Positions 28,609 through 29,656 of a stretch of DNA of 37,013 bases are shown here, in pieces (the stretch's first letter is position 1; each line of letters opens with the position of its first letter). The position numbers and the translations under genes are program-made. The notes beneath the pieces were generated by a model. It ran no database searches and had not been told where the DNA came from. It worked only from the letters and a program-made list of their open reading frames with translations. The DNA is from Myxococcales bacterium (GTDB lineage Bacteria; Myxococcota_A; Polyangia; Haliangiales; Haliangiaceae): assembly GCA_016794525.1 (NCBI GenBank), contig JAEUJY010000003.1:1-37013 (forward strand). Direction: 5' to 3'.

Positions 28609-29073
28609 ATGCGCCACGCCGGGCTCCTCGTCGTCGCCGGGGCGCTCGCCGCGGCGGCCCCGGCCCGCGCCGACGGCGGCGTGCCGCGCTACCAGGTCGT
28701 CGCCGCCGACGTCGCCGCCGACGCGACGATCGCGCTCGGCGTCCACCTCGAGTCGCCCACGGTCAGCGGCTGGGGCGTCGCGGCGTACCTGCTGGTGGCG
28801 CCGGCGATCCACCTCGTCCACGGCGACGGGGGCGACGCCGCGCGCAGCCTGGGGCTGCGGCTGGTGGCGCCGGTCGGCGGCGCCTTCGCGGGTGGCCTGG
28901 TCGGCCTCGCCGCCGGCAGCGGCAAGGACGCGCTCGCCACCGGGTTCGGCGGCCTGGTCGTCGGCGCGGTGCTGGGCACGCTCGCGGTCGAGCTCTACGA
29001 CGTCGCGGTGCTCGCCGGCCCGGCCGAGGCCGCCGCCGCGCCGCGCGTGGTGTCGTTCGGCGGCCAGTTCTGA
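28609..29073 (+). CDS. small exported/membrane protein of unknown function
   Basis: 154 residues. Cleavable signal peptide (GALAAAAPARADGG). The mature part has three hydrophobic segments rich in Gly and Ala: GWGVAAYLLVAPAIHLV, LRLVAPVGGAFAGGLVGLAAG, and FGGLVVGAVLGTLAVEL, the last two with glycine-zipper spacing. This pattern is common in small myxobacterial proteins that sit in a membrane. No catalytic residue or family is recognised. The ATG sits 6 bases after a CATGCT -10. A double hairpin follows the stop within 13 bases. Confidence 0.75.
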   Translation: MRHAGLLVVAGALAAAAPARADGGVPRYQVVAADVAADATIALGVHLESPTVSGWGVAAYLLVAPAIHLVHGDGGDAARSLGLRLVAPVGGAFAGGLVGLAAGSGKDALATGFGGLVVGAVLGTLAVELYDVAVLAGPAEAAAAPRVVSFGGQF

Positions 29074-29084
29074 TCGTCGGCCGC

Positions 29085-29145
29085 GCTCGCCGGGGGCATG
29101 TCCCCGGCGAGGGGAGGCGCGGCGACGCCTGGAACTCAGCGCTCG
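29085..29145. repeat. double-hairpin element, copy A
   Basis: Stem CTCGCCGGGG (29086-29095) with CCCCGGCGAG (29102-29111), then a weaker second stem AGGCG/CGCCT, then ACTCAG and CGCTCG. It is a diverged copy of the element at 29203-29270, 118 bases downstream. Confidence 0.7.
29086..29111. terminator. 10-bp hairpin after the small exported protein gene
   Basis: Perfect 10-bp stem with a 6-base loop (GCATGT), 13 bases after the stop codon at 29073. No T tract. Confidence 0.5.
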
Positions 29146-29202
29146 TCAGTTGTTCGGACGAGCAACGGTCCGCGCGCCGGGCGTCTCGCGTCCTGGTGGG
29201 AG

Positions 29203-29270
29203 GCTCGGCGGGGACCTGGCCCCGCCGAGGGAGGTGCGGCGACGCACCTCCTAATACTCAGTAGCGCTCG
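29203..29270. repeat. double-hairpin element, copy B
   Basis: Stem CTCGGCGGGG with CCCCGCCGAG, then a perfect 9-bp stem GGAGGTGCG/CGCACCTCC closed by a GCGA tetraloop, then ACTCAGTAGCGCTCG. Against copy A the first stem shows a compensatory C-G to G-C exchange. The right end covers the stop and last codons of the minus-strand zinc-ribbon gene. Confidence 0.7.
29204..29251 (-). terminator. paired hairpins after the zinc-ribbon gene
   Basis: Two adjacent perfect stems (10 bp and 9 bp) begin 7 bases beyond the stop of the minus-strand gene. They probably end or stabilise the 3' end of the purM-to-zinc-ribbon transcript (inference). Confidence 0.5.
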
Positions 29271-29656
29271 GCCGGCGGCAATGTCTCGAGCCACGGGAAG
29301 CGCGTCCGGGGCACGCGGCGATCGAGCAGGTTCAGCACGCCGAGGCCGACCGCCGCCATCAGCAAGATCTGATCGGCCAGGAACGGCAGCGCGATCGTGT
29401 GGGCGCGCAGCTTCCAGAACCCGGGGATGAACCAGCACGCGCCGATCGTGACCATGCCGGTCACGACGCCGATCATCCGGTTGCGTCCCGACGCGCGATC
29501 GAGCCGCCGCTGGTCGGTCTCGACCAGCAGGTCGCGCACGCTCGACCGGCGCACGTCGATCAGCTGATCGAACCGGCAGCGCGCGCACGCCGCCGCCTCG
29601 ACCTGCAACAGCCCGCACTGCGAGCACGCGAACCACGTCGCCTCCGGGGCAGCCAT
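29258..29656 (-). CDS. zinc-ribbon membrane protein
   Basis: 132 residues. The N-terminal ATWFACSQCGLLQVEAAACARC gives C-x2-C-x10-C-x2-C, a zinc ribbon; a polar, Arg-rich stretch (30-60) follows, then two membrane helices (about 61-80, MIGVVTGMVTIGACWFI, and about 88-108, ALPFLADQILLMAAVGLGVL). It lies 35 bases downstream of the EtfD gene on the same strand and is probably co-transcribed with it. No catalytic motif; it could help assemble or regulate the neighbouring complex, but that is a guess from position. Confidence 0.75.
   Translation of the reverse strand: MAAPEATWFACSQCGLLQVEAAACARCRFDQLIDVRRSSVRDLLVETDQRRLDRASGRNRMIGVVTGMVTIGACWFIPGFWKLRAHTIALPFLADQILLMAAVGLGVLNLLDRRVPRTRFPWLETLPPAERY

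Follow-up and report, generated by a model that had tools for sequence, protein, structure and literature searches.

Among the closest described systems are the REPs and REPtrons with their RAYT (TnpA-REP) proteins, in which high-copy extragenic palindromes show compensatory changes, form clusters, are patchy in related genomes and, as outward-facing copies, flank a linked Y1 (HUH) transposase gene (PMC2817692; PMC8266576). For the first described RAYTs, neither multiple copies nor a change of place was seen (PMC2817692); thus, a genome with multicopy Y1 genes and repeats would be useful for testing how REPs spread. It has also been reported that the ends of GTAG REPs often supply TAG stop codons, and that in TIRtrons (TIRYT) a RAYT-like gene is flanked by longer inverted repeats, some of them built of hairpins, which also occur as dispersed copies (PMC3733652). 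Members of the IS200/IS605 family have a Y1 transposase, subterminal hairpins and a boundary word at the target and the right end, and lack a short variable target duplication.

Here, we analysed a locus in a 37,013-nt stretch of a myxobacterial genome (the window; the genome is called the home genome, or G000, below). It probably holds two copies, one full and the other decayed, of a mobile element that is dispersed, non-autonomous and of the REP/IS200-IS605 kind. The element is a real, structured and dispersed mobile repeat, of REP type but with a new layout. It shares with the REP and REPtron systems the high copy number, the extragenic palindromes with compensatory changes, the clusters, the patchy occurrence and, at part of the Y1 loci, the outward-facing copies beside the gene; with GTAG REPs the stop codon supplied by the terminus, a trait that therefore has a precedent; with TIRtrons a RAYT-like gene beside longer, partly hairpin-built repeats that also occur dispersed; and with IS200/IS605 the Y1 protein, the subterminal hairpins, the boundary word and, in full-length copies, an apparent lack of a short variable target duplication. 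On the other hand, the GTAG or CGTC tag that stands beside the palindrome in the REP super-families of those names is absent, and the head is TGAG-TTYCA; REPs are single hairpins of 20-40 nt, whereas the unit here is ~122 nt long and has two strong hairpins and a third, weaker one. Unlike in REPtrons, the transposase gene is multicopy, and no Y1 was found in a second genome rich in the element (G006). TIRtrons have been described from other taxa and with other sequences, and unlike in IS200/IS605 the Y1 cassette carries its own inverted ends. With two related, uncultivated myxobacteria (home genome and G006) as hosts, the element seems to extend the REP/RAYT world to a myxobacterial lineage, one with an unusual layout of long multi-hairpin units, a stop-supplying TGAG head, a multicopy transposase and tandem arrays. 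The literature searched yielded no myxobacterial TIRtron or TIRYT case and nothing relevant on Kofleriaceae repeats.

Anatomy of the two copies in the window

The first-pass annotation had described a duplicated element of two hairpin pairs, copies A and B, whose starts lie 118 bases apart. Both pairs were found at that place, with first stems at 29086-29095/29102-29111 in copy A (CTCGCCGGGG/CCCCGGCGAG) and 29204-29213/29220-29229 in copy B (CTCGGCGGGG/CCCCGCCGAG), and the C-G to G-C swap noticed between these stems is real. The second stem ascribed to each copy pairs perfectly over 9 bp in copy B (29230-29238/29243-29251), around a GCGA loop, but in copy A it has decayed to about 5 bp. Likewise, the hairpins are repeated as had been proposed, but the unit of repetition is a full ~122-nt element beside the remnant of a second one. 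A BLAST search of the home genome with the hairpin region gave 47 matches, most of them at query positions of about 56-182, i.e., 29135-29261. Thus, the real unit is one ~122-nt element ending in the copy B hairpins, and not A plus B.

The full-length element occupies 29140..29261 on the minus strand, with boundaries set by alignment of the genome copies. In gene orientation it reads CTGAG-TATTA-H1 (9 bp)-H2 (10 bp)-CCTCCCACCAGGACGCGAGAC... (H3 region)-H4 (7 bp)-G, and then CTGAG (29135-29139), which it has in common with copy A. Folding and covariation define both H1 (29230..29251, with the loop GCGA on the plus strand) and H2 (29204..29229, with a 6-nt loop), and H4 (29141..29163, GCTCGTC/GACGAGC) is predicted by DNA folding and has weak family support. 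The boundary pentamer, CTCAG on the plus and CTGAG on the minus strand, stands at the junction with copy A (29135..29139), where it is kept in most full-length copies despite unrelated flanks, and at the gene-side end (29257..29261). Copy A (29086..29139, minus strand; 33 bits with the covariance model R1 described below) represents the H2-H1 end of another, decayed element in tandem, in which H2 is intact, H1 is shortened and the CTCAG end is kept. In comparison with shuffled sequences, copy B folded as RNA with z -4.5 and the whole unit as DNA with z -4.7 and -4.6, and copy A alone gave a non-significant z of -1.5.

The TGA at 29258-29260, within the gene-side CTGAG, is the stop codon of the adjoining gene (29258..29656, minus strand; ORF end and reading-frame G+C test), whose 132-aa product contains CxxC pairs as well as hydrophobic segments. 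On the other side, a convergent gene from the ORF list (28609..29073, plus strand) ends in TGA at 29071-29073; start codons of both genes were chosen by eye. Copy A had also been said to repeat the neighbouring gene's end. The minus-strand sequence CGAGCGCTGAG at the unit junction indeed resembles CGAGCGCTACTGAG at the gene end, but both finish in CTGAG, so the resemblance is really that of the boundary word.

Copies, covariation and distribution

Besides the window, 29135-29261 is present at about 40 other sites of the home genome, and the search with R1, of the kind that the first-pass annotation had suggested, retrieved at least 137 copies there (9.8 Mb); 150 candidates were scored in each genome, so that the counts are minimum values. 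Hence, the hairpin pair in the window is not due to chance, and the finding of no further copies, which would have spoken against the proposed element, did not occur. At least 129 copies were also detected in G006, a MAG of the same genus, as compared with 0-2 in each of five other same-genus genomes and none in 23 other genomes of the family. When 84,980 species genomes were scanned for an exact pattern, with home-genome records possibly left out, the sole match was G006 (a same-genus Kofleriaceae MAG from activated sludge, JAGPCY). Such a patchy distribution among related genomes fits a mobile element. Many copies in G006 lie in head-to-tail arrays with steps of 62, 80 and ~122 nt. Runs of N were noticed inside tandem element arrays at two loci of this genome (L044 and L046), and many of its copies lie near contig ends, which suggests that the repeat breaks the assembly.

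Most full-length copies have CTCAG at both ends and unrelated flanks. The family consensus in gene orientation is CTGAG/TTYCA-H1-H2-(spacer, H3)-H4-G-CTGAG/ (slashes at the boundaries), where the head consists in most cases of TGAG or TGAA and, after it, a short spacer (e.g., TTYCA). Of the 60 home copies compared, about half belong to a discrete short form that begins near GTCTCGCGTC; these are 5'-shortened with a fixed 3' end. Several sequence subfamilies have the H2-H1 end in common.

Structure in H1 and H2 is conserved beyond sequence alone, as the first-pass annotation had proposed from its single swap. In an alignment of 21 chosen copies from the two genomes, 10 of 17 pairs had changed on both sides and 98.6% of cells could pair, against 37-60% in slid controls. 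Among 12 full-length copies, two-sided changes affected 6 of 10 H2 pairs and 5 of 9 H1 pairs; H4 showed none, with 86% of its cells paired. The 139 model-aligned copies, read on the plus strand, contained 2,294 Watson-Crick cells, 22 G-T and 10 A-C, an asymmetry too weak to make the strand of action clear.

Three short-form copies are flanked by long direct duplications: 64 bp, exact, at L014 (G000:C95:6859-9926); 38 bp, near-exact, at L121 (G000:C102:49427-51525); and 30 bp, near-exact, at L125 (G000:C160:20792-22864). All three start exactly at the ACTCAG-side end of the element, and they are the only clear cases in the 60 copies. The duplicated stretches take in starts or ends of genes, among them, as judged by eye, a tmk-like and a 2-isopropylmalate-synthase-like start.

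Placement at stop codons

In 39 of the 60 home copies, a TGA stands in register at the gene-side end of the element, and 33 of these are stop codons of the coding frame according to the reading-frame G+C test. As a control, only 19 of 97 non-genic TGA[GA] sites at the same loci (20%) were stops. A coding stop was also present near 23 of 31 array ends in G006, with about half of all ends lying within 0-5 nt of it. These data fit either targeting or selection against other insertions as the cause of this placement. With regard to gene context, 30 of the 60 copies are between convergent and 25 between co-directional genes. For insertion 3' of a fixed target, the evidence consists of the CTCAG at both full-length ends, set beside the three copies with long duplications; an ortholog of the adjoining gene in the window was sought in six relatives and none was found, hence there was no empty site to compare.

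Y1 transposase genes and the proposed movement of the element

A REP-associated transposase had been named as something to look for, and Y1 (HUH) genes are indeed present in the home genome. Seventeen matches to Y1_Tnp (PF01797) exceeded the Pfam cut-off, 15 of which are closely similar, near-identical proteins of ~250 aa. They carry HIH and AYVLNN motifs, as read from sequence, and thus combine the Y1_Tnp domain with the HUH and catalytic Tyr of IS200/IS605 (Y1) proteins. Their best NCBIfam match is REP-associated tyrosine transposase (E 6e-6), although at 26.1 bits it does not pass the 80-bit cut-off of the curated RAYT model NF047646. The suggestion of a REP-like dispersed element is therefore borne out by the many copies, the conserved structure and, in the same genome, a tyrosine transposase of the REP type.

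R1 matches lie within 1.5 kb at seven of the 15 Y1 loci, and in every case the CTCAG end faces away from the gene. If the genome has 137 copies, at least seven linked loci would arise by chance with a probability of about 1e-6, and for 500 copies the value is still 3e-3. Flank layouts, read by eye, are varied. At L185, the cassette is bracketed by both halves of one element (H1-H2 on the left, H3-H4-CTGAG on the right), and L190 has a right end of the same kind; H1-H2 is on the left at L187 and L193, and inverted H2-H1 or H1 is on the right at L059, L061, L186 and L189 and likewise at L057. The other Y1 copies carry short remnants, and most show truncated element ends. Several inverted right-end matches were thus seen, and no locus has two intact inverted copies. 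Left ends of the Y1 units sit at stop codons, as elements do. Inverted ends of ~28 bp, found at 10 genome places, bound the cassette itself, which joins the element internally at a nearly constant point, GAC/CTGATCATTC; at L185, a 10-bp direct repeat stands on both sides of the cassette.

From this linkage we infer that the element is mobilised by the home Y1 protein, moving as single-stranded DNA and being joined behind TGAG. The transposase would fold the single-stranded element and cut it after CTGAG at each end, and the cut element would then be joined behind a target TGAG, at tolerated sites mostly a gene's stop codon. Since the element has CTGAG on its far side too, another copy could land there, which would account for both the tandem pair of the window and the G006 arrays. 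The main evidence against movement by Y1 is that G006, with its at least 129 copies, has no Y1 match by the Pfam model or the home protein, and the Y1 unit may merely land in the element. Furthermore, the 30-64-bp duplications at three copies are not predicted by the Y1 mechanism, H4 is weakly conserved, the head differs from the GTAG of known REPs and about half of the copies are short forms. We consider it unlikely that a mechanism is at work that has a real stop-codon preference, makes some target duplications of 30-64 bp and thrives without a Y1 of its own, as in G006; if all this were so, the miniature element would be one that seeks out stop codons, in contrast to the REPs known so far.

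There is a modest chance that the element is a mobile repeat in its own right and that the Y1 insertion sequence uses it only as a landing site. ISPpu9 is reportedly an example of an insertion sequence that uses REPs in this manner. The cassette's own inverted ends, its near-constant junction and the direct repeat at L185 are all consistent with landing, as are the abundance of the element in G006 without Y1 and the same-genus genomes that have 7-12 Y1 copies and no element. However, the copies at L059, L061, L186, L189 and L057 end in inverted H1 or H2-H1, which is the REPtron layout, rather than in the opposite half of a single element; the Y1 left ends at stop codons also speak against landing.

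Hairpins immediately after stop codons, half of the 60 copies between convergent genes and a GNRA-type loop (GCGA/GTGA) kept on the plus strand could instead point to a structured RNA or a signal for mRNA 3' ends, spread and kept for regulation; a small RNA and a paired terminator had both been proposed in the first-pass annotation. A mild effect of the hairpins on mRNA 3' ends is possible, but regulation as the reason for the family appears quite improbable, given that an Rfam scan of the window feature gave no match, that scans for intrinsic terminators (G+C-rich hairpin with T-run) and sigma-70 promoters found none at the element, that wobble pairs are almost absent with weak strand asymmetry, and that the element is absent from sister species. 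Accordingly, neither the small RNA nor, with no T-run at the hairpins, the paired terminator was upheld. Copying during repair of long staggered breaks (target-primed or break-filler insertion) would produce duplications such as those at L014, L121 and L125 and 5'-shortened forms with a fixed 3' end, yet it is highly improbable, since clear duplications are confined to those three copies, full-length copies have just the CTCAG word at both ends and the msd region of the home retron is unlike the element. Movement by the Y1 protein is the reading that we prefer.

Several minor observations were made in the course of these searches. An origin from retron msDNA was considered and rejected, the home retron msd being unrelated to the element. 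One strong RT match was obtained in each of four same-genus genomes searched. The retron-like locus L064 (G000:C165, about 620-1050, before an RT gene at 1054-2400) has a long msd-type hairpin, and between this hairpin and the RT gene lies a hairpin pair, GAGGGTCTTTCGCAAAGACCCTC-CCCCGGCATGCGCCGGGG, that is faintly element-like (R1 19 bits). No convincing recurrent passenger gene was found beside the copies in the home genome. Long hexamer-like simple repeats (GATCCC, GGCTCC, GACCGC) directly adjoin the Y1 genes at L052, L194, L195 and L196, and at L055, L057, L059 and L185 ~560 bp of nested inverted repeats lie upstream of Y1, between the element end and the gene, in both orientations among Y1 copies. 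At L190 (G000:C47:35700-38700), an apparently different insertion sequence is nested in the left element end of the Y1 unit.
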